This document shows, in pieces, positions 1,040 through 51,258 of a stretch of 53,474 nt of DNA. Both the position numbers and the translations under genes were made by a program. Numbering within the stretch: position 1 is the stretch's first letter; every line of letters begins with the position of its first letter. The DNA comes from an uncultured bacterium (GTDB lineage: Bacteria; Dictyoglomota; Dictyoglomia; Dictyoglomales; Dictyoglomaceae), in contig CALHLF010000007.1 in assembly GCA_938034905.1 (NCBI GenBank), positions 1 to 53,474 on the forward strand, in the 5' to 3' direction. The notes under the pieces were generated by a model. The model was not told the origin of the DNA and searched no databases. It was given only the letters and a program-made list of their open reading frames with translations.

Positions 1040-1941
1040 TATCTTTTAACCTCCACCCTTAAGCTGTATCTTAGATATGGTATTATCAGTACTGCAACAG
1101 AGATTAAAAGAATTATTGCAATACTTGCTCCTTGAGAAAAATAATTTCCTCTAAAAGTAGTATCATACATAAATAATGCAGGAACATCACATGAAAATCC
1201 AACACCACTTCCTGTCATGGCAAAAACTAAGTCAAATATTTTAAGAGAAATATGTCCTAAAACAATTATAGCTCCAAGGGTTATAGGACGGAGAAGGGGA
1301 AGAATAATATATCTATAAACCTCAAAAGTGCTGGCACCATCTACTTGGGCTGCCTCAAAAAGTTCTGTAGGAATTCACCTTATACCTGCAAGATACATTG
1401 CCATTACATATCCAGACATTTGCCAAACTGCTGCTATAACTACTGCTTTGATTCCTATTTTAGGATCGGTATACCATCCACTCTTTAAAAAGGAAAGCCC
1501 CAGTTTATCTAAAAGCATATTTATTCCTATGGATCCTTCTATCCCACCAGTCCCTGGATTTAATAGCCATCTCCAAACAACACCAGTAACTACAAAGGAT
1601 ATTGCCATGGGGAAAAGATAAATGTTTCTAAAGATATTTTCTCCTCTAATTTTTCTATCAACAAGAATTGCTAATAAAAGTCCAATAATAATTGAAGAAA
1701 TTAAAAATAAAGATGTAAATACAAGAGTATTTTTTAATGAGATCTGAAATCTATAATTTTGAAAAAGATCAATATAATTTCTAAATCCTACAAAGGTAAA
1801 GTCTGGGAAAATATCTCTCCAATTTACAAGGGAAACCCAGCCTGTCCATCCTATAAATCCATAAACAAAAATTGCTATTAAAATAATTGAAGGCAATATA
1901 AATAAAAAAGGAATAATCTTTTCTTTATCAATTTTCTTCAT
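1039..1941 (-). pseudogene. MalF-type sugar ABC permease with in-frame TGA
   Basis: The reading frame runs without shift from ATG at 1941 to TAA at 1041-1039, about 300 codons, the normal MalF length. One codon is TGA (minus strand 1377-1375, codon 189). It falls in the sequence AGIR-stop-IPTELFEAAQVDGAS, where relatives have Gly; a GGA to TGA change explains it. The stop precedes the EAA loop, so the 188-residue product would lack the ATPase contact and the last membrane helices and should not work. The rest of the frame past the stop is fully conserved in character (VYRYIILPLLRP, then two hydrophobic helices). The mutation must therefore be very recent, or a sequencing error, or the stop is read through. 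Other genes here use TGA as a normal stop. Confidence 0.85.
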
Positions 1942-1989: not shown

Positions 1990-3198
1990 TTACTGTTTTA
2001 CTCCTTGTTTTACTGCAACACTAACTAAGGCTTTTTGAGTAGTACTTACATTAGGAAATGCTACAAAGAGTGAAATCACATCTTTAAACTCTGTTACCCA
2101 TCCCTCAGATGCAGCTGCTCCATGCATTACACTGGGTACAATAGCATGTTTTAACCAATCGTCCATAGCTGATCTTTGATATTCTGGGAATTTTGTCTTA
2201 TCTACATCGGTTCTTGCAGGAATTGATCCTTTCTTAATATTAAATGCTTCTTGTCCTTCCTTTGAGCCTAATACTCTTAAAAATGCTATTACATTATCCC
2301 TATTCTTTACCCCCTTGGGAAGGCCGAAACTGTCTGATAAGGCATCAAATATCCCAGCATTTCCTGGGGCTAATACCCAACCAAAGTCTTTAAATCCCTT
2401 TGCATAGAAATATCCTACTGCCCAATCTCCCATAATATTCATTGCAGCTTTTCCTTCTACAATCAAAGCGCATGCCTCATCCCAAGTTCTTGCAGAATGA
2501 TCCGGATTTATATATGTTAGCATCTTTTTGAAGGTTTCTAAGGCATCAGTAACTTTAGGATCGGACCATTTTGTTTTTCCTGTCCAGAGTCCCTTATATC
2601 CTTCTGCACCTAATTTCCCAATTAAAACTGTTTCAAAGACATGAGCAGCTTCCCATCCATCCTTTGTTCCAAAGGCTAATGGAATAATTCCCTTTGCCTT
2701 TAATGTATCTGCTACTTTAAAGAATTCATCAAAAGTCTTTGGCGGTGTTAGTTTATTTTCTTCAAAAATCCTTTTGTTATACCAGAGAACATTTGCTCTA
2801 TGGATGTTTACTGGAACAGACCAGTAGTTTCCTCTATAGGAAACTATATCTAATATTCCCTTGGGCATTGTCTTGGTCCATCCTTCTTCTTTATATAAGA
2901 AGGTAATTGGTTCCATAAATCCTGTTTTTACCCAGGTATCAATTAACTCGTGCCCTGCATGGACCTGGAAAGTATCAGGAGGATCACCGCCAAGCATTCT
3001 TGTTTTTAAAACTGCCTTTGCTTGGGCTCCAGCACCACCAGCTACCGTTGCATTGATAATCTCTACTTCAGGATATTTTTTGTGGAAAATATCAAAGAGA
3101 GCTTGAAGACCTTCTGCTTCTCCACCTGCAGTCCACCAACTGAAAATTTCAAGTTTACCTTTAAGCTGAGCAAGAGAAGAGAAGCTTATTAAAAGGTT
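1990..3198 (-). pseudogene. Sugar ABC solute-binding protein lacking start and signal peptide
   Basis: Family 1 extracellular sugar-binding protein, about 400 residues of conserved mature sequence. Motifs include KLEIFSWWTAGG at the N-terminus and LGGDPPDTFQVHAGHELIDTW. The first ATG in frame (2997) lies about 65 codons inside the mature protein. Upstream the frame stays open only to 3198 (NLLISFSSLAQLKGK, the end of a signal peptide) and then meets TAA at 3201-3199. No start codon is available, and the lipophilic core of the signal peptide is truncated. The break lies about 20 bp from the plus-strand promoter of the sulfur genes, which suggests a deletion joined the two loci. A start at 2997 would give a cytoplasmic, N-truncated 335-aa product that could not serve as a binding protein. 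Confidence 0.8.
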
Positions 3199-3221
3199 TT
3201 ATCTTTTTTTTAAAAAAACCC

Positions 3222-3250
3222 TTGCATAATTTTGATTGTTTTGGTATAAT
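3222..3250 (+). promoter_or_regulatory. Sigma-70 type promoter of the sulfur module
   Basis: TTGCAT (3222-3227) and TATAAT (3245-3250) are separated by exactly 17 bp. Transcription should begin near 3257, leaving a leader of about 113 nt before the DUF39 gene. Confidence 0.75.
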
Positions 3251-3256
3251 TCCAAA

Positions 3257-3370
3257 TCAAATTTTTATATTAAAGGAGGTGATGAAAGTGATATGGATCA
3301 TGCCTTGCCCGAAGAGGGCGGTTCATAGCAATAAACATAATAAAAATTTTGAAGATAAGGAGGTTAAAAG
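3257..3370 (+). promoter_or_regulatory. Leader RNA of the DUF39 operon with hairpin and possible leader peptide
   Basis: The leader holds a GC-rich hairpin, GCCC (3307-3310) and GGGC (3316-3319) with loop GAAGA, extended by AUG/CAU pairing at 3300-3302 and 3324-3326. This GC-rich element stands out from its AT-rich surroundings. A strong ribosome site (AAAGGAGG, about 3273-3280) precedes a GTG 8 nt later. A reading frame from there begins M-I-W-I-M-P-C-P-K and runs past the start of the DUF39 gene to stop at 3431. Met and Cys near its start would suit attenuation by sulfur amino acids. The leader does not match any riboswitch consensus that I can recall. Confidence 0.45.
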
Positions 3371-4594
3371 ATGGCAAAGACCATTGAGGAAATTAATGAG
3401 AAGATTCGCCAGGGTAAGGCAGTGGTGGTGACTGCTGAGGAGATGATTGATATTGTTAGGGAGAAGGGGGTGGAAAAAGCAGCAAAGGAAGTAGATGTAG
3501 TGACTACTGGTACTTTTGGAATGATGTGTTCTTCTGGTATTTACTTTAATATTGGACATACAAAACCAAGAATTAAACTAGGAGGAGGAAAGGTATATCT
3601 AAATAATGTTCCTGCATATGCAGGTTATGCTGCAGTTGATATATTCTTAGGTGCCACAGCCCTTCCCGAAGATGATCCTCGAAATAGATACTACCCTGGA
3701 AAATTCCCCTATGGTGGAGCCCATGTAATTGAGGAGTTAGTAGCAGGAAAGGATATATTACTAACTGCTACAGCATATGGAACCGACTGCTATCCAAGAA
3801 AATTTTTATCTGCATATATAAATATAAATGATCTAAATGAAGCAGTACTTTTTAATGTAAGAAATGCCTATCAAAATTATAATGTAGCAGTGAACTTATC
3901 AAATAGGACCATCTATACATATCTTGGAATGTTAAAACCAAACTTAGGTAATGCAAATTACTGCTCTGCAGGACAATTGTCTCCACTTCTTAATGATCCC
4001 TTCTATAAAACCATTGGAATAGGTACAAGAATATTCTTGGGAGGAGGAATTGGATATATTATATGGCAGGGAACTCAACATGATCCCTCGGCAATAAGGG
4101 GAGAAAACGGAGTTCCTAAAAGAGGTGCAGGAACTATTGCAGTAATTGGAGACCTAAAACAAATGAGTCCAAGCTGGTTAAAAGGGGCAAGTATCATTGG
4201 TTATGGGGTATCTTTAGCCGTTGGTATTGGAGTACCTATCCCCATATTGGATGAAGAAATTGCCTCTTATACCTCAGTTAAAGATGAGGATATATATGCT
4301 CCTATAGTGGATTATAGTTCTTCTTATCCCAATAGGGAACCAGAAGTTATAGGAGAAGTTAGCTATAAGGAATTGAGAAGTGGAGAGATAGAAATCTTAG
4401 GGAAAAAGGTTCCTACAAATCCCCTCTCCAGTTATGCAAAGGCAAGAGAGATTGCAAATATATTAAAAGAATGGATAAAGGAAGGAAAGTTTTTGTTAAC
4501 AAAGCCTTCTGCTCCTATTCCCGGACCAGAATCAGGAGTTAGATTTAAACCCTTTTCTGGAAAAGAACTGAAGGAGGAGGTTGGTTCCAGATGA
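3371..4594 (+). CDS. DUF39 / COG1900 homocysteine biosynthesis protein
   Basis: 407 aa. It resembles the family that, in methanogens, converts aspartate semialdehyde to homocysteine using a protein-bound persulfide (the MA1821 type). The N-terminal region carries VVTTGTFGMMCSSGIYFNIGH with Cys at residue 53, and ATAYGTDCYPRKF holds a second Cys near residue 140. These are candidate sulfur carriers. Gly-rich segments (LGGGKVYLNNVPAYAG, FLGGGIGYI) are typical. The start ATG has an AAGGAGG site 7-8 nt upstream. The stop overlaps the next gene by 4 nt (ATGA), and that gene encodes the NIL-ferredoxin partner known from the same system. The enzyme would let the cell assimilate sulfide directly into homocysteine without acylated homoserine. 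Function is inferred from family and context. Confidence 0.88.
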   Translation: MAKTIEEINEKIRQGKAVVVTAEEMIDIVREKGVEKAAKEVDVVTTGTFGMMCSSGIYFNIGHTKPRIKLGGGKVYLNNVPAYAGYAAVDIFLGATALPEDDPRNRYYPGKFPYGGAHVIEELVAGKDILLTATAYGTDCYPRKFLSAYININDLNEAVLFNVRNAYQNYNVAVNLSNRTIYTYLGMLKPNLGNANYCSAGQLSPLLNDPFYKTIGIGTRIFLGGGIGYIIWQGTQHDPSAIRGENGVPKRGAGTIAVIGDLKQMSPSWLKGASIIGYGVSLAVGIGVPIPILDEEIASYTSVKDEDIYAPIVDYSSSYPNREPEVIGEVSYKELRSGEIEILGKKVPTNPLSSYAKAREIANILKEWIKEGKFLLTKPSAPIPGPESGVRFKPFSGKELKEEVGSR

Positions 4595-5004
4595 GAACTG
4601 AAAGAGTAGTTTTACATTTTCCAAAACATTTAGCAGATAAGCCAGTAATAGTTAATCTGGTCCGGAAATTTGATTTGGATTTTAATATATTGAAAGCAAC
4701 CATAACCCCTGATGAAGAGGGAGTTATGGTCTTAGAAATCACTGGAGAGGAGGAGAATTTTCAAAAGGGGATACAATATTTAAAGGAATTAGAGATAAAG
4801 ATTCAACCTCTATCACAGGATGTAATATGGAATGAGACAAGATGTACTCACTGTCTCTATTGTGTTAGTTATTGTCCTACAAAAGCATTACAAAGGGATG
4901 AAGAAACATATTTAGTAAAATTTGATCCTCAGAAATGTATTGCTTGTGGTATTTGCGTAGATATATGTCCCTATAAAGCTATGGAGATAAGATTGGTAGT
5001 TTAA
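4591..5004 (+). CDS. NIL-domain ferredoxin (homocysteine biosynthesis partner)
   Basis: 137 aa. Residues about 1-75 form a NIL domain (ERVVLHFPKHLADKPVIVNLVRKF, MVLEITGEEE), a small ACT-like fold also found in methionine importers. Residues about 80-135 form a two-cluster ferredoxin with motifs CTHCLYCVSYCP and CIACGICVDICP, that is, eight Cys for two 4Fe-4S clusters. It is translationally coupled to the DUF39 gene by an ATGA overlap. In methanogens this fusion (the MA1822 type) is the redox partner of the DUF39 enzyme, probably reducing a disulfide or persulfide there. Its stop overlaps the convergent ktrA stop by 4 bp. Confidence 0.9.
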   Translation: MRTERVVLHFPKHLADKPVIVNLVRKFDLDFNILKATITPDEEGVMVLEITGEEENFQKGIQYLKELEIKIQPLSQDVIWNETRCTHCLYCVSYCPTKALQRDEETYLVKFDPQKCIACGICVDICPYKAMEIRLVV

Positions 5005-5699
5005 ATATTTTCTACCATAAGAAGTTTATTTAAAGAATCCAAGGTCCCTACTATATAAAGAATATCTTCTGCCTCTATTCTTTCATCGGGGTGGGGATTG
5101 ATAATTATATCTCCACCTCGATGAATTGCTAAAATATTAAGACTGTATTTTCTTCTTAATTGTAAATCCTCTAAAGTCTTTCCTACAAGATGAGGACTTG
5201 TTTTTACTTCAAAGATTTTTACATTAGCAGAAAGCTCCATAAAATCAATTATATTAGGGACTACTAATCTTTGAGCAAGAAGTTCCCCACTTTCTTTTTC
5301 GGGAAATACCACCAAATCTGCACCAATTTTTTCTAAGATCTTCCCATGGGCATCATTTACAGCTTTTGCAACTACATATTTTACCCCTAATTCTTTTACC
5401 AATAAGGTTGCCAGCACTGAAGATTGAATATCATTAGCTATAGCAATAATTACTACATCTGAATTTTGAACGCCTGCATCTCTAAGAGCATTAATATTTG
5501 TAGCATTGGCAACCTTTGCAAAGGATACATAGTCCTTTAATTCTTCTACTTTTTTCTCATCCTCATCAATAGCTAAAACAGAACATCCAAGCCTTTCTAA
5601 TGTTATTGCAACAGAAGTACCAAACCTACCTAATCCAATTACGGTGAATTGGTAAAATCTTTCCTTTGTAAGACCCATTTTATAAAAGAAAGACTTCAT
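5001..5699 (-). CDS. ktrA: KtrA/TrkA-type potassium uptake regulator
   Basis: 232 aa cytoplasmic gating subunit of a Ktr/Trk potassium channel. An RCK-N Rossmann domain starts at about residue 18 with VIGLGRFGTSVAITLERLG, followed by acidic ID at the end of beta-2, which suits NAD(H) or adenine nucleotide binding. The RCK-C domain occupies about residues 150-230 (VKTSPHLVGKTLEDLQLRRKY, ADILYIVGTLDSL). ktrB lies immediately upstream, and its TAA abuts this ATG with no gap, so the pair forms one unit. Both genes run opposite to the sulfur genes on either side. The symbol reflects family membership; trkA would be equally acceptable. Confidence 0.9.
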   Translation of the reverse strand: MKSFFYKMGLTKERFYQFTVIGLGRFGTSVAITLERLGCSVLAIDEDEKKVEELKDYVSFAKVANATNINALRDAGVQNSDVVIIAIANDIQSSVLATLLVKELGVKYVVAKAVNDAHGKILEKIGADLVVFPEKESGELLAQRLVVPNIIDFMELSANVKIFEVKTSPHLVGKTLEDLQLRRKYSLNILAIHRGGDIIINPHPDERIEAEDILYIVGTLDSLNKLLMVENI

Positions 5700-7055
5700 T
5701 TATCCCACACTCACCTCCTCTGTAGGATAGTCTATTAATTTTTTATGGTTTATTGAAGAAAGAAGAGCTAAACCTGCAGTTACGGTTCCTACTCTCCCTA
5801 AAAACATTGTTAAAATGATTACAATTCTACCAAAAGAAGAAAGCTCTGAAGTTATTCCTGTGGATAATCCCACTGTTCCAAAGGCAGATACAACTTCAAA
5901 TAACATTTTTAAGGGTTCAAAGGGTTCTGTTAAAAGTAATAAAAACCAAGAGGTTAGAACTAAAACTAAGGAGAAGAAAAAAACTGCCCAAGCTCTTTTA
6001 ACAGTTTCCCAATTAAGACTTCTGTTTTTGAAATGTACATGTTTTCTTTCTAAGATAATTGTAAATACACTTAATAAAAGAATTAGAAAAGTGACAGTTT
6101 TTATTCCTCCTCCTGTTCCTCCTGGAGATGCTCCAATAAACATTAGAATAATTAAAAATAACCATGTAGCAGGTCTCATCTCTTTAATGTTTAAAGTGTT
6201 AAATCCAGCAGTTCTTGGTGTTACACTTTGGAAATAAGAGCCTAATATTTTTCCTCTCCAAGAGAGGGATTTTAGAACATTATTATATTCTAAAATAAAG
6301 ATTAAAATCGTTCCAAAGATAATTAAAAATAAAGTAGTAAATAAAGCTGCCTTTGAATGAAGGGATAGATGATTTTTCTTCTTAGTAAGTTTTTGATAAA
6401 TATCATATATAACAAAAAAGCCAATTCCACCTATTATTATTAATGAAGTTACAGTAAGATTCAATTGAAGGTGATCTACATATTGGGTGAAACTTTTGAA
6501 TCCTCCAAGAAGATCAAATCCTGCATTACAAAAAGCAGATACAGAATGAAAAATTGCAAATTTTACTGCTTTAATAAAGGGATATTCTCTTATAAAGATA
6601 GTAAATAAAGAAAGTGCTCCAATTCCTTCAAATATGAGAACTGTTAATAAAACGCCCTTTAAAAAGCCAATTATTCCCCTTATGGATAAAGTATTTAAGG
6701 AAAATTGAAGCATTATCCGATCTCTTAAAGGAATTCTCCTATTTAAAAGAACCATTAAAGAGGTCACAAGAGCTATGTAACTTAATCCTCCAATCTGAAT
6801 TAGCCCCATAATGACTAAATGTCCAAAATGAGACCAATAGGTTCCTGTATCTACCACCACAAGACCTGTAACACAAGTGGCAGAAGTAGCAGTAAATAAG
6901 GCAGTTAAAGGATCAGTAAATCTTCTACTGTTAGAGGAGATGGGAAGCATTAATAGAAAAGTTCCAGCAAGAATTATAATTAAAAAACTACGAATAAAAA
7001 ACCACGCAGGATTATTTCTCCGGAAGGGAAATATTCCTTGCTCTAAAATATCCAT
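5700..7055 (-). CDS. ktrB: KtrB/TrkH-type potassium uptake membrane subunit
   Basis: 451 aa integral membrane protein that forms the potassium pathway. Four pore-loop repeats are visible: TSATCVTGLVVVDTG, SAFCNAGFDLLGG, SVTPRTAGFNTLN and SAFGTVGLSTGIT. Each has the single conserved filter Gly typical of the Trk/Ktr/HKT superfamily. The length fits KtrB (about 450 aa) better than the longer TrkH. It begins MDILEQGIFPFRRNNPAWFFIRSF and is followed without spacing by ktrA. Confidence 0.93.
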   Translation of the reverse strand: MDILEQGIFPFRRNNPAWFFIRSFLIIILAGTFLLMLPISSNSRRFTDPLTALFTATSATCVTGLVVVDTGTYWSHFGHLVIMGLIQIGGLSYIALVTSLMVLLNRRIPLRDRIMLQFSLNTLSIRGIIGFLKGVLLTVLIFEGIGALSLFTIFIREYPFIKAVKFAIFHSVSAFCNAGFDLLGGFKSFTQYVDHLQLNLTVTSLIIIGGIGFFVIYDIYQKLTKKKNHLSLHSKAALFTTLFLIIFGTILIFILEYNNVLKSLSWRGKILGSYFQSVTPRTAGFNTLNIKEMRPATWLFLIILMFIGASPGGTGGGIKTVTFLILLLSVFTIILERKHVHFKNRSLNWETVKRAWAVFFFSLVLVLTSWFLLLLTEPFEPLKMLFEVVSAFGTVGLSTGITSELSSFGRIVIILTMFLGRVGTVTAGLALLSSINHKKLIDYPTEEVSVG

Positions 7056-7135
7056 AAAATTAATTTATTTTAAATTGCACCTCTTTTCTATATAATAATA
7101 AAGAACGATAGTAATTTTATTACTGTAAATTTAAA
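7056..7135. promoter_or_regulatory. Divergent promoter region with inverted repeat
   Basis: This 80-bp gap separates ktrB (minus) from the UPF0280 gene (plus). A TATAAT box lies at 7091-7096. AGTAAT and ATTACT (7110-7124) form a perfect 6-bp inverted repeat around TTT, 11 nt before the UPF0280 ATG. No Shine-Dalgarno site precedes that ATG, so the repeat may act as an RNA hairpin or an operator. Confidence 0.4.
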
Positions 7136-7864
7136 ATGTCAAATGAATACATAAAAAGAGAATATAGAAAATATATGAAGGCTGATGATCTTATAGGATT
7201 TCCTGTAAAGATTAAGGAAAGTGATCTTTATATTTTGGCAGAAAAGGATTTAGAAAAAGAAACAAGAAAGGTTTTAGAATATTATAGGAATCAGATAGAG
7301 GAATATATAAAAGAAGATCCCTTATTTTATATAACTTTAGAACCTCATAATGTTTTACCATCTGCTCCTAAAATTGTGAGGGAGATGTCCCATTGGACGA
7401 GAAAGGCAGGAGTTGGTCCTATGGCAGGAGTGGCAGGAGCTATAGCAGAATTTGTGGGGAGGGATTTGCTGAAATTTTCTCCTCAAGTTATAATCGAAAA
7501 TGGAGGAGATATATTTCTAAGCAGTAAAAGGGAAAGAGTAGTATCCATTTTTGCAGGAGAATCTATATGGAGTAATAAATTGGGAATCTTAATTCCTCCC
7601 TCTCAACATTTAGGGATATGTACTTCTTCGGGTACGGTAGGACCATCTTTAAGCTTCGGAAGAGCAGATGCAGTGGTGATTATTTCTAATTCTACGATTT
7701 TTGCTGATGCTTTGGCAACAGCTGTAGGAAATATGATCCAAAAACCTGAGGATATAGAGTTAGGTATCGAATATGCAAAGGGATTTTCTGAAGTTTACGA
7801 AATAATAATAATTATGGGAGAACATTTAGGAATTTGGGGTAGATATGAAGTAATAAAAATTTAG
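7136..7864 (+). CDS. UPF0280 / COG2122 family protein (ApbE-like)
   Basis: 242 aa. It matches the UPF0280 family, distantly related to the FAD:protein FMN transferase ApbE. Typical segments are HWTRKAGVGPMAGVAGAIAEFVG (about residues 83-105), VIIENGGDIFL, GICTSSGTVGPSLSFGRADAV and FADALATAVGNMI. In methanogens a COG2122 protein (the MA1715 type) supports efficient sulfide use by the DUF39/NIL-ferredoxin homocysteine route. Finding it 2 kb from those two genes supports the same role here. The biochemical reaction is not known to me. The start lacks a clear ribosome-binding site but is the first in-frame ATG. Confidence 0.85.
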   Translation: MSNEYIKREYRKYMKADDLIGFPVKIKESDLYILAEKDLEKETRKVLEYYRNQIEEYIKEDPLFYITLEPHNVLPSAPKIVREMSHWTRKAGVGPMAGVAGAIAEFVGRDLLKFSPQVIIENGGDIFLSSKRERVVSIFAGESIWSNKLGILIPPSQHLGICTSSGTVGPSLSFGRADAVVIISNSTIFADALATAVGNMIQKPEDIELGIEYAKGFSEVYEIIIIMGEHLGIWGRYEVIKI

Positions 7865-32134: not shown

Positions 32135-33505
32135 TTATTTATCATATCTTCCTGCCAACAATGGTGCAATCTTTTTTGCAATTTCATCGCATGCGGACTG
32201 AACACTAATTTTTCCAAGAAATGCATTGGAAAGTTCTTGATACATTATGTCATTTATCTTATCAAAGTTTCTCAAGTAATATACTGGAACTGGTTTAGCA
32301 TATTTTAATGTATAGTCTATAACTGCTTCTTTATACTCTGGAGGATGTATCCCTGTATCTTCTATCCATTTCTTTATATATTCAGGATCTGTATACCACC
32401 ATTTTTGAATAGGCATCCAAAGACCAGTTCTTATTAATTCTATTACTGTTTCACTATTGTTTAAGAATTTATAGAATTTCCATGCTGCATCTAAAACTTC
32501 AGGTTTATCCTTCACTGCTTTAGTATATATTCCTATAGGATTTCCAATTACTCCTGTCACAGGTCTTTTCAATATTGGTAAAGGTGCAACTCCCAATTTT
32601 AATTGGCCTGCCTTAACTAATCTACCCAGCTCTAAAAGAGACCATTGCCCATCTATAACCATTGCTACCCTTTTGGTTTGAAGAGCTATATGATAAGCAG
32701 GTAATGCCCCCAATTGAGCAGGTGTAGGTGCCACTTTATATTTATAGATTAAATCTACGAGGGCTTGAAGTCCTTCTACTGCTTCCTTTTTATTTATTGT
32801 AGGGATTCTTCCAGTGGGATCGCATAAATCTCCCCCATTGGACCAAATGAATGGGAACCAAACCATATACCAGTTTCCAAAAGCAACCCCAAAGGTCTGA
32901 ACTTTATTATGATCAAAACCAGGTTCATTGGGATGTTTACCATTTACATCAACCGTTAATTTTGTTGCTGTATCTACAAATTTCTTCCAAGTCCATTTTG
33001 TAGGATCTGTAGGTGGGTAGGGAACTCCTGCCTTATCAAAAATTTCCTTGTTGTACCATATAATCATTACCTCTGCTGCAACACTGGTCCCTAAGGTTTT
33101 CCTTTTCTTATCATACCAGAAAGCAATGGATGGAAGTCTATTCTCCATTTTTATTGCAGGATCTGGATCTTTCCTGATGAGGGGTAGGATATCAAGAAGT
33201 TCTCCTTTTTCTGCCCAGTCCAAAGCAATAGTTTCCATTGTGTATCCTAAGGTAGGAGGAGCTCCCCCAGCTAACATTGCACTAACCTTTGCGATGTACT
33301 CTCCCCATGGTATATGCATTGCTTTTACAGTTATCCCAGGATTATTCTTTTCAAAGATTTTTGCTACTTCTGGCATTACCTTTGCCTCTTCAGGTCCACC
33401 CCAAAAAGTAAAAACAATTTCAACAGGTTTTTGAGCGATGCCTGGGAGAGATAGAAGAAGGGAAAAAATTAATAAAAGAAAACTGATTTTAACTAAAAGT
33501 CTCAG
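32135..33505 (-). CDS. Sugar ABC solute-binding protein, apparent CTG start
   Basis: 456 aa if begun at CTG (33505-33503). The mature family-1 protein starts at about residue 26 (QKPVEIVFTFWGGPEEAKVMPEVAKIF). The first in-frame ATG (33376) lies well inside it and would remove the signal peptide. Upstream of that ATG the frame encodes an excellent signal peptide, RLLVKISFLLLIFSLLLSLPGIA. It is bounded by TAA at 33511-33509, so CTG is the only candidate start; GGGGG lies about 7 nt before it. Either CTG is really used or an ATG/TTG has mutated. The gene lies in an operon with two permeases and GH127. A GntR operator sits in its promoter. Confidence 0.85.
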   Translation of the reverse strand: MRLLVKISFLLLIFSLLLSLPGIAQKPVEIVFTFWGGPEEAKVMPEVAKIFEKNNPGITVKAMHIPWGEYIAKVSAMLAGGAPPTLGYTMETIALDWAEKGELLDILPLIRKDPDPAIKMENRLPSIAFWYDKKRKTLGTSVAAEVMIIWYNKEIFDKAGVPYPPTDPTKWTWKKFVDTATKLTVDVNGKHPNEPGFDHNKVQTFGVAFGNWYMVWFPFIWSNGGDLCDPTGRIPTINKKEAVEGLQALVDLIYKYKVAPTPAQLGALPAYHIALQTKRVAMVIDGQWSLLELGRLVKAGQLKLGVAPLPILKRPVTGVIGNPIGIYTKAVKDKPEVLDAAWKFYKFLNNSETVIELIRTGLWMPIQKWWYTDPEYIKKWIEDTGIHPPEYKEAVIDYTLKYAKPVPVYYLRNFDKINDIMYQELSNAFLGKISVQSACDEIAKKIAPLLAGRYDK

Positions 33506-41595: not shown

Positions 41596-42341
41596 ATAAA
41601 AAAATTTACAAAGATTCTTTCCATTCTCTTAATTCTAATTTTACTTCTTTCCTTAGGATCCGCACAGGAGGAGAAAGGGTTTGTTACATAGGAACAGATA
41701 ATGTAAAAGCTGCTGAGCTTGGTGGAAAGAAGCTTTGGGAGGTTTTACAGGCAACAAAAAGACCAATGCCTTACAATGTAGTAATTCTTGAAGGACTTCC
41801 TGGGGCATCTTCTGCTATTGAAAGAGAAAAGGGATTTAAAAATGCATTAAAACCTCATATAGATGCAGGTCACATTAAGATAGTTGCAGACCTCACTGCA
41901 AGATTTGATAGAGCAACAGGTCTAAAGGTTATGGAAGATATTATAGCAAGAGAAAGAAAGATTGATGCCGTTATTGCAGCAAACGATGAAATGGCCTTGG
42001 GAGCTTTAGAGGCTCTAAAATCAGCAGGATTCAAAGTAGGTTTCCCTGATGGGGTAATTATTGTAGGTTTTGATGCAATAACAGATGCTGTTGAGGCTGT
42101 TAAAAGAGGAGAATTTGTGGCAACAGTAGCTCAAGCACCTTATCTTATGGGATATTGGGGTGTGGATGCAGCATATCAATATAAGAAATTAAGATGGACT
42201 CCACCGAAGGATACACCAATATATGCACCTACAGGAGCAAAACTTCTTGGAACTCCAGTTATGGTTGTAACTAAAGAGAATGTTGGAAAATTAAATGAGG
42301 TAGTAAAAACTCCTGTACCAATTCCTGGAAGCAAGAGATAA
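41596..42341 (+). pseudogene. rbsB: Ribose-binding protein gene rbsB, deleted and frame-shifted
   Basis: Codons from 41596 read ATA-AAA-AAA-TTT and give the signal peptide (KKFTKILSILLILILLLSLGSAQEEKG). The start codon position is ATA, not ATG, after a GGGGGGAG ribosome site. The frame then stops (TAG at about 41689). The next conserved residues, VCYIGTDNVKAAELGGKKLWEVLQATK, lie in another frame (from 41679) and continue to 42341. They match the middle of ribose-binding proteins, so about 100 residues of the N-terminal lobe are missing. The C-terminal half is intact (IDAVIAANDEMALGALEALKSAGF, DAVEAVKRGEFVATVAQAPYLMG). No functional binding protein can be made. Confidence 0.88.
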
Positions 42342-46454: not shown

Positions 46455-47210
46455 ATGAGTGCTGATCTCTATTTTGAAAAAATCATAGAAATATTAAAAA
46501 AAGTAAAAGAGACTCAAAAAGAAAATATAAGAAAAGCAAGTGAACTCATGGCAAAATCAATTTCTCAGGGAAGAGCAGTTTATACCTTTGGTTCAGGACA
46601 TTCAGTTCTTCCTGCTCAAGATGTTTTTCCAAGGTATGGTACTTTTGTTGGGATACAACCAATTCTTGATTCAAGGCTTATGTGGTTTAATATCTTAGGG
46701 CCTGGGGGAGTAAAAGAACTACTTTGGCTTGAGAGAACAGAAGGCTATATTAAGAATGTGTTGGATCAGTATCCTATAACTGAAAAAGATGTAGTAATAG
46801 TTTACTCCCATGGAGGATTAAATCCTGCACCTGTAGAGGTAGCTTTAGAATCAAAGAAGAAGGGTGCAAAAGTTGTTGCAATTACTTCTATGGAAAATCA
46901 AAAAATCTCTAAAGCTTCCCATTCATCGGGTAAAAAACTTTCAGATATTGCAGATATCACCATAGATAATGGTGTTCCTCCTGAAGATGCATTAATAGAA
47001 ATCGAGGGAAGAAAAGAGAAGATCTCAGCAGGATCTACAGTTTTAGGGGTGGTAATAACTATGGCGCTTATTGCAGAGACTGGAAAAATCCTAAATGAGA
47101 TGGGAAAACTTCCTCCAGTATTCATCTCTCCCAATATTTGCAATGATCCAGAGCATAATAATAATGTCTTCAAAGCATATAGAGATTTTTATTTGAATTT
47201 GTTTAAATAG
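46455..47210 (+). CDS. SIS-domain phosphosugar-binding protein (UPF0309 type)
   Basis: 251 aa from ATG at 46455, with GGAGG about 7 nt upstream. A TTG 24 nt further upstream overlaps the operator. The SIS sugar-phosphate motif is AVYTFGSGHSVLPAQDVFPRYG (about residues 41-62), and the second phosphate site is VIVYSHGGLNPAPVEVALESKKKGAKVVAITSMEN (about 116-150). Related proteins isomerise or sense phosphosugars such as amino sugar phosphates. It precedes the GH42 gene in one unit, so it may act on a product of that pathway. Confidence 0.85.
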   Translation: MSADLYFEKIIEILKKVKETQKENIRKASELMAKSISQGRAVYTFGSGHSVLPAQDVFPRYGTFVGIQPILDSRLMWFNILGPGGVKELLWLERTEGYIKNVLDQYPITEKDVVIVYSHGGLNPAPVEVALESKKKGAKVVAITSMENQKISKASHSSGKKLSDIADITIDNGVPPEDALIEIEGRKEKISAGSTVLGVVITMALIAETGKILNEMGKLPPVFISPNICNDPEHNNNVFKAYRDFYLNLFK

Positions 47211-49421: not shown

Positions 49422-50571
49422 ATGAAAAGGCTTCTTGTTCCCATTTTAATTCTTCTCCTAATTTTTACATAACATAGAAATTGAGATAAGATCTGTAGCT
49501 TTTGAAGAATTATTAAAAAAGATAATTATAGATCATACTGCAGGTTTACCCAGTGATGTTTATGTTCTTTACTCTTTATGGGGTGTAGAATTAGTAAGAT
49601 CTGGTATCTTGGATGCCCCACCAGCAAATATTCAAGAGGCTGTAAGACTTTTATTTGTTAAGCCTGCATTAGATGGAGTAACTATAGATGGTAAAATCTG
49701 GGGAGTACCTATTGAAGTAAATAATTATGCCTTAGTCTATAACAAGAAGATGTTAGCAGAAGCTGGATTTAAAAAGCCTCCAAGAACCTGGGCTGAATTG
49801 GTAGATATGGCTGTAAAACTCACAAAGAAAAATCCAGACGGATCCGTTGCTCGATATGGGTTTGCCTTCTTAGCTGGATGGGATTCTGCAGTAGTTCATC
49901 CATATCTATCTCTTCTTTATAGTAATGGAGGAGAATTTTTATCTAAAGACTTCAAGACTTGTTATTTAGATAGAAAAGAGGCTATAGAAGCTTTAGAAGC
50001 AGAATTGGAATTGTTTAAAAAAGGAGCTACAAGCACTGCAGCCAGTGTTTGGAATTTCCCTACAGAGAAAGTTGCTATGATAATAATGGCTCCTTGGTAT
50101 GAAAATAGTTTAAAGGTTGCTCTCAAAGAAAGATGTGCTGAGACTGTTGGAGTAGCACCTATCCCATATCTTAAAAAACCTGCTACCTGTGGATATACAT
50201 GGTTTATTGGAGTAGACAGTGGTAGTAAAAATAAAAAGGAGGCATGGGAATTTATTAAATGGATGACTATTGATACTCAACCTAATGGAACCACAAGAAT
50301 GGGTGAACTAATGGCAAAAACTATTGGGGCTATTCCACCAAGAAAAACTGATATAACTAAATTTCCCGATGAACTTAACGACTTATATACCGCAACTTTT
50401 GTTAAAGAATTAGTTCGTACCATTCAAGAACCTAATGTAGCTCAAGGGCAAGAGATAAAAACAATTCTAATGAGAGAGATTGTTGAGGCATGGAATGGGA
50501 GAAAAACTGCAGAACAAGCCTTGAAGGATGCAAAGAAAAAAATAGATGAAATATTAAAAGAAAATTACTGA
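49422..50571 (+). pseudogene. Sugar ABC solute-binding protein with deletion after the signal peptide
   Basis: A normal start (ATG 49422, AGGAGG upstream) opens a signal peptide MKRLLVPILILLLIFT, which ends in TAA at 49470-49472. From about 49471 the next frame reads NIEIEIRSVAFEELLKKIIIDHTAGLPSDVYVL and then continues as an intact family-1 binding protein to 50571 (SLWGVELVRSGILDAPPANIQ, GVPIEVNNYALVYNKKMLAEAGF). About 40 residues of the mature N-terminus are missing and the frame is shifted. The 320-aa frame starting at a TTG (49609) would lack export and the first lobe. Confidence 0.87.
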
Positions 50572-50582
50572 GGTGATAAGAG

Positions 50583-51258
50583 ATGATTCTGCCCTTTTTT
50601 TGGCTTTTTTCAGCATCTCTTATGACTCCTCAAGAACTTATAGCATTTCCTCCTAAATTTATTCCAGCAGAGCCCCAATGGCAAAATTATATAGAGGTGA
50701 CAAAGAAAGTACCCTTTTTAATGTATTATAAAAACAGCTTTATAGTTGCTACATCTTACAATGATGTTCCCTGTATTTATTTTCCTTATCCCTGTTTACT
50801 ACCTCATGAAGATATTTGGATGGCTAAATAACTATCTTTCTTTAATTTCTCCCTTTATTGTAAGTGGCTATGGAATTTTCCTTATGAGACAATTTATTTT
50901 AACTATTCCTGATGAATTGTTGGATTCTGCAAGAATTGATGGAGCAAAAGAAATAACAATATATTTTAAAATAATTCTTCCCCTATTAAAACCTGCCTTA
51001 GCAACCTTAGCAATACTCACATTTATAGGACAGTGGAATTCTTTTTTATGGCCTCTTATTGTAACTACTTCTGCTCCTCATATGATGACTCTTCCTGTAG
51101 GAATATCAAGACTCTCTTTAGCCTTTTCTACTGTTGAAACTCAGCATCTAATTTTAACATCTTTAGTTCTTCAAGTAATTCCAACTGTTATTTTATTCCT
51201 CTTCCTACAGAGATATTATATAAAAGGGTTTGTCCTATCAGGATTTGGAGAAGTATAG
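50583..51258 (+). pseudogene. MalG-type sugar ABC permease with internal deletion
   Basis: The first frame from ATG 50583 (after GAGGTGATAAGAG) reads MILPFFWLFSASLMTPQELIAF and ends at VPFLMYYKNSFIVATS, already lacking most of the first helix. Near 50757 the frame shifts to TMMFPVFIFLIPVYYLMKIFGWLNNYLSL and continues to TAG at 51258, including the EAA loop (ELLDSARIDGAKEITIYFKIILP). About 40 residues between FIVATS and TMMFPVF (helices 2-3) are gone. The MalF-type partner gene is completely absent between this gene and the binding protein. The locus has therefore suffered two or three deletions. Confidence 0.87.

Follow-up and report, generated by a model that had tools for sequence, protein, structure and literature searches.

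The closest described relatives of the gene considered here are the ribose-binding proteins (RbsB) of the CUT2 family of ABC transporters, among them PDB 2ioy, the Escherichia coli protein (1urp/2dri) and the Thermotoga maritima protein (2fn8). The intact orthologue of our gene, from a genome of the same genus, matches 2ioy at 2e-64 and the E. coli protein at 1e-44. As in these systems, the window analyzed, a stretch of 53,474 nucleotides, carries rbsA, rbsC, rbsK and rbsD together with a LacI regulator; unlike theirs, its rbsB has no start codon, a broken frame and little left of the first N-lobe segment. Loss of ribose genes can pay: in the long-term evolution experiment with E. coli, bacteria lacking most of the rbs operon through deletion were about 1.5% fitter (PMC2806358). 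The window resembles this case in that ribose genes were lost by deletion, but differs in that rbsB is the only gene hit in the rbs operon, while several unrelated sugar operons are hit as well. For T. maritima, another report describes a 20-kDa C-terminal fragment of the ribose-binding protein (RBP), expressed in E. coli (7pu4; PMC2630998), which covers about the same C-lobe as the open reading frame surviving in our window. There the full-length protein is made as well, whereas the remnant in the window is known from sequence only. A surface-level literature search found nothing on point for Dictyoglomus transporter pseudogenes or for 5'-biased decay of binding-protein genes.

Materials and methods

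The window comprises all of contig C7 of G000, a draft genome of 1.84 Mb in 80 contigs, 99.56% complete, whose host belongs to the Dictyoglomaceae, a group of hot-spring bacteria. The comparison genomes were G001 and G002, of the same genus, and G003 to G006, of the same family. Lesions in G000 were read from the assembled draft, with the intact orthologue of rbsB taken from G001. Proteins of the relatives were compared by tblastn with the window and then with other transporter loci (107 genes in G000, 101 in G001 and 69 in G003).

The 5' ends surveyed in G000 were those of all 17 PF13416 matches and of five PF13407 proteins. PF13407 gave 22 matches, of which the five scoring at least 128 bits were counted as binding proteins and the other 17 were set aside as mainly LacI-type regulators, judged by score. 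PF00496 gave 13 matches, 11 with a readable 5' end; the match on C36 runs into the contig end and a match on C11 was left out. Lesions were graded as hard (rbsB, C7 3.2 kb, C7 49.4 kb, C56 and C13) or soft (C37, C7 33.5 kb, C46 and C41), a weak or later start being one that might still serve in the soft group. For the genes on C46, C56 and at C7 33.5 kb, the compared loci contained no close orthologue, and their lesions were judged from the genes themselves.

Lesions in the rbsB gene of the window

An earlier note on this DNA had described rbsB as broken by a changed start, the loss of about 100 residues and a frameshift just after the signal peptide. Direct reading upholds the coordinates it gave, and all three defects are confirmed against the orthologue in G001 (contig C25; L022 7290-8318, minus strand), a 342-aa open reading frame that starts with ATG (Table 1). 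Frame 1 from position 41596 translates to IKKFTKILSILLILILLLSLGSAQEEKGFVT*, a signal peptide whose first codon is ATA and whose frame runs into a stop eight codons past the deletion junction; no ATG, GTG or TTG was found in this signal-peptide frame. The gene is 1029 nt long in G001 and 746 nt long in the window, a net loss of 283 nt, which is not a multiple of 3, and the alignment of the two shows a single large gap directly after the signal peptide. The lost part corresponds to about residues 24-118 of the G001 protein, the first part of the ribose-binding N-lobe. By the alignment with 2ioy, the loss extends from the start of the mature protein to beyond the 'tldrd' stretch, so that the first N-lobe segment is gone; this is the segment that presumably holds several of the sugar-contact residues of E. 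coli RBP. With these 283 nt missing, the signal peptide is not in frame with a complete two-lobe protein. The remnant scores 124.8 bits against PF13407 (cut-off 35.1) and covers only positions 97-253 of 258, compared with 222.9 bits over positions 1-253 for the G001 orthologue. Relative to that orthologue the lesions are disabling, as expected of a pseudogene. For the intact orthologue the NCBIfam equivalog NF007936 (RbsB) is the best model, but at 210 against a cut-off of 337; ribose is the likely substrate of this RbsB-type protein.

Table 1. Features of the window, in order of position
Feature	Position	Strand	Basis
Permease, MalF-type, with internal TGA at 1375-1377, otherwise whole in one frame	1042..1941	-	tblastn
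Third binding protein with damage; lacks start codon and beginning of signal peptide	1990..3195	-	tblastn, reading of 5' end
Binding protein with CTG opening the signal peptide, body open	32135..33505	-	reading of 5' end
LacI-family regulator (RbsR-like), open, 339 aa	40496..41515	+	family profiles; 86% identical to G001 copy
rbsB remains	41596-42341	+	direct reading; aligned to G001 orthologue
ATA codon where G001 rbsB has its ATG start	41596..41598	+	DNA alignment to G001
rbsB signal-peptide relic, stop after junction	41596..41691	+	frame-1 translation
rbsB deletion junction, net 283 nt missing against G001, frame shift	41663..41668	+	DNA alignment, lengths
Rest of rbsB (G001 residues 119-342), open in another frame, no 5' start codon	41667..42341	+	PF13407 match
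191-aa open reading frame from first in-frame ATG of rbsB remnant, most of C-lobe	41766..42341	+	list of open reading frames; sequence reading
rbsA-type double ATPase, open, 505 aa	42403..43920	+	open reading frame, family profiles
rbsC-type permease, open, 317 aa	43917..44870	+	open reading frame, family profiles
rbsK ribokinase, open, 310 aa	44890..45822	+	NCBIfam TIGR02152, 342.3 over 299.65
rbsD D-ribose pyranase, open, 131 aa	45827..46222	+	NCBIfam NF008761, 165.4 over 93
SIS-domain sugar isomerase-like protein, open	46455..47210	+	family profiles
Second binding protein with damage; ATG and signal peptide present, followed by a stop and a deletion; lacks G001 residues up to 63	49422..50571	+	tblastn
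Permease remains, cut and out of frame; same operon as preceding binding protein	50583..51258	+	tblastn

ATA was considered as an ordinary start codon in G000, which the start survey of 107 genes does not support. Five of these genes were without a start: three damaged binding proteins, one match at a locus edge and one gene (47207) with a later start. The C56 gene, which also has ATA, lay outside this survey and has no close relative among the compared loci.

Operon partners and possible substitutes

The ribokinase and the D-ribose pyranase adjoin a CUT2 transporter, as in an rbs operon; RbsA and RbsC match sugar CUT2 models, with scores below the equivalog cut-offs, and a GH42-type glycosidase comes next after the rbs operon genes. 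That rbsA, rbsC, rbsK and rbsD are intact, as the earlier note had stated, is borne out by their open reading frames and family profiles. Its further statement that only rbsB is broken is right for the rbs operon but not for the window as a whole, which contains two other broken sugar ABC operons and a third whose binding protein lacks a normal start codon. Given the lesions in rbsB, no ribose-binding protein would reach the periplasm, and RbsA and RbsC would receive no ribose, leaving the transporter idle. Ribose that arises within the cell may still be handled by ribokinase and pyranase.

The transporter had been expected to be inactive unless another binding protein is used, and a search of the genome for an orphan ribose-type protein yielded no substitute. 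Neither a second rbsB copy nor a displaced N-lobe was found in the G000 assembly with the remnant and the N-terminal 145 residues of the G001 protein as queries. Other matches of the remnant in G000 are 27-40% identical, and a scan of the remnant against the genome contigs gave one distant locus only. The other CUT2-type binding proteins are encoded in different operons; two are on C3, accompanied by permeases of their own, and C37 carries one (permease broken) and C56 another (itself broken). The open body of the fucose-type protein on C37 adjoins a cut permease, and such a protein, having lost its own permease, might be borrowed by RbsA and RbsC. We think this very unlikely: the C37 protein is only about 30% identical to the rbsB remnant, its start and signal peptide are damaged too, and CUT2 permeases normally accept their own binding-protein partner.

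It is also conceivable that the remnant has itself been put to use, the 191-aa open reading frame being translated and its C-lobe folding alone. In favor, this frame has a match in the 188-residue chain 7pu4 of T. maritima, conservation of the remnant is strong, and an internal Met142 that has a ribosome site to itself is the suggested start of the T. maritima fragment expressed in E. coli (PMC2630998). Against it, no well-placed Shine-Dalgarno sequence was seen before the ATG at 41766; the closest GGGAGG lies at a distance of 23 nt and is absent in G001. The window Met falls some 16 residues after that of T. maritima, as estimated from chain offsets. The product would have no signal peptide and half of the sugar site would be gone, while equal conservation would be shown by a young pseudogene. 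We consider a domesticated remnant extremely improbable. The rbsB gene is quite probably a genuine recent pseudogene, one of several sugar-uptake operons that appear to be being shut down in this lineage.

Age of the break

Over 220 shared residues the remnant is 94.5% identical to the G001 RbsB. By simple Nei-Gojobori counts between G000 and G001, for which synonymous sites are partly saturated, the dN/dS of these 220 codons is 0.039, making them the least diverged coding piece of the operon (rbsC, 0.062; rbsR, 0.070; rbsA, 0.107; rbsD, 0.144) and placing them below the background median of 0.069 from 61 gene pairs. As a long-dead gene would differ, the rbsB break looks recent relative to the split from G001. 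The remnant shows no relaxed constraint, and none would be expected in a young pseudogene either, nearly all of the divergence having preceded the break.

Damage to other sugar transport genes

A broken rbsB by itself is an everyday pseudogene, ordinary in kind; the unusual part is the bias of lesions toward 5' ends across the genome. In the binding protein at C7 49.4 kb, a deletion and a frame change follow the signal peptide. The gene at 32135..33505 has its first ATG, GTG or TTG at the 45th codon of the open frame, and this CTG-start protein may still be made. On C56, a sugar-binding protein (L045, about 2804-3752, minus strand) has ATA at the start of the signal peptide and a frame change just after it, as in rbsB, so that both genes carry two lesions. 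One deletion in the fucose-type operon on C37 (L044 10004-11489) removes the C-terminal half of the permease and the start of the binding protein, reaching into the signal peptide. The frames on C46 and C41 are broken between the start at the ribosome site and the signal peptide, with a further in-frame start downstream, and in the C13 gene (PF00496) the ribosome site, the start and the greater part of the signal peptide are gone. Thus, 8 of the 22 PF13416 and PF13407 binding proteins of G000 are damaged at the 5' end, along with 1 of the 11 readable PF00496 genes (C13), giving 9 of 33 readable binding-protein genes damaged at start codon or signal peptide (5 hard, 4 soft). The bodies of these genes are open, except for what rbsB lost; the lesions therefore crowd the 5' ends.

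In the tblastn comparison, real breaks in G000 were confined to sugar ABC genes. General damage to genes with signal peptides was considered and is unsupported: of 20 'other' genes with a hydrophobic N-terminus two were flagged and neither is broken, one being a locus edge and the other a signal peptide with its start upstream. Stop flags at L043 593-1537 and L058 1560-2528 also proved spurious.

Permeases are affected as well. Among 68 PF00528 matches in G000, those broken are C7 1078 (internal TGA, where G001 carries a sense codon), C7 50746 and, on C13, a gene divided between two frames; among nine PF02653 matches, the one on C37 is cut. The operon at 49-51 kb of C7, which comes after the GH42 gene, lacks its upstream (first) permease altogether. 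Of the 9 operons whose binding protein is damaged, 4 have permease lesions, compared with 0 of the 24 whose binding protein is intact (p 0.003). Decay of the operon at 47-51 kb of the window is not confined to G000, since its counterpart in G001 has a broken permease (C7 12018-12458), the one broken permease noted there, and a stop in the GH42 gene. Locus L044 also encodes, at 4394-5254, a protein with a run of near-identical LNALAEAQ-R-TEER repeats.

Origin and position of the lesions

Errors at low coverage or from mixed strains could leave similar marks: G000 is a draft in 80 contigs, its lesions are seen in the assembly alone, and two soft lesions each consist of a single-base change within or close to a homopolymer. 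Against such an artefact, real breaks among the compared genes are limited to sugar ABC genes, the lesions cluster by operon, and they are of several kinds, including base substitutions and an internal TGA. An AT-rich dip in coverage is unsupported, as the AT content of the damaged 5' regions is lower than that of intact ones (0.695 versus 0.740). An assembly collapse, raised earlier as the reading that spanning reads would establish, is not supported as the cause: in G001 the sequences at the rbsB breakpoints have just a few bases in common and no long repeats, a change of ATG to ATA is impossible by collapse, and eight further binding-protein genes have varied lesions. A single collapse is insufficient because the kinds of lesion vary, include substitutions and follow operons. 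We therefore judge an artefact of sequencing or assembly to be unlikely, and the rbsB lesion, as read from the assembly, to be quite probably of real origin.

If the lesions are real, several sugar ABC operons would have been silenced recently, for the most part by damage to the binding-protein gene at its start codon or signal peptide and in part by permease lesions. A plausible cause may be selection against the expense of producing exported binding proteins in quantity when their sugars are unavailable. Such selection would favor early lesions, and the early position agrees more with a stop to synthesis than with mere loss of function. It is also possible that the 5' bias is partly a property of mutations and not of selection. 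That selection targets the cost of making and exporting the binding protein, and not loss of function, so that early lesions win, sometimes twice in one gene, and bodies stay mostly untouched, is a tentative suggestion that we hold to be less likely than not. The genome-wide set may offer a natural case of concerted shutdown of sugar import in a thermophile, and the 5' bias, if it holds in reads, raises the question of whether silencing is the first step in the loss of genes for costly exported proteins. Annotation may meanwhile count the damaged operons as working transporters.

Comparison with relatives

No damage was found in G001 (0 of 39 genes: 0 of 29 with 23 PF13416 and 6 PF13407, and 0 of 10 readable PF00496), where the short contig stretch of an eleventh PF00496 gene leaves its 5' end unreadable, or in G003 (0 of 21: 17 PF13416 and 4 PF13407). 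G002 has 1 damaged gene of 16 (0 of 8, 0 of 7 PF00496 and one relic). In Fisher tests, which take the genes to be independent and involve a single damaged genome, the difference is 9 of 33 in G000 versus 1 of 76 in the relatives for all lesions (p 7e-5) and 5 of 33 versus 0 of 67 for hard lesions only (p 0.003). PF13416 binding proteins number 23 in G001, 17 in G000 and 7 in G002, and G002 may represent a later stage of shutdown. Among the 22 PF13416 and PF13407 genes of G000, a close orthologue in the fetched G002 loci was present for 0 of 8 damaged versus 4 of 14 intact genes. The relic in G002 (L139, G002 C1:144500-155000, 6448-7642, minus strand) has a frame change in the signal peptide and a broken body; a shortened permease accompanies it.
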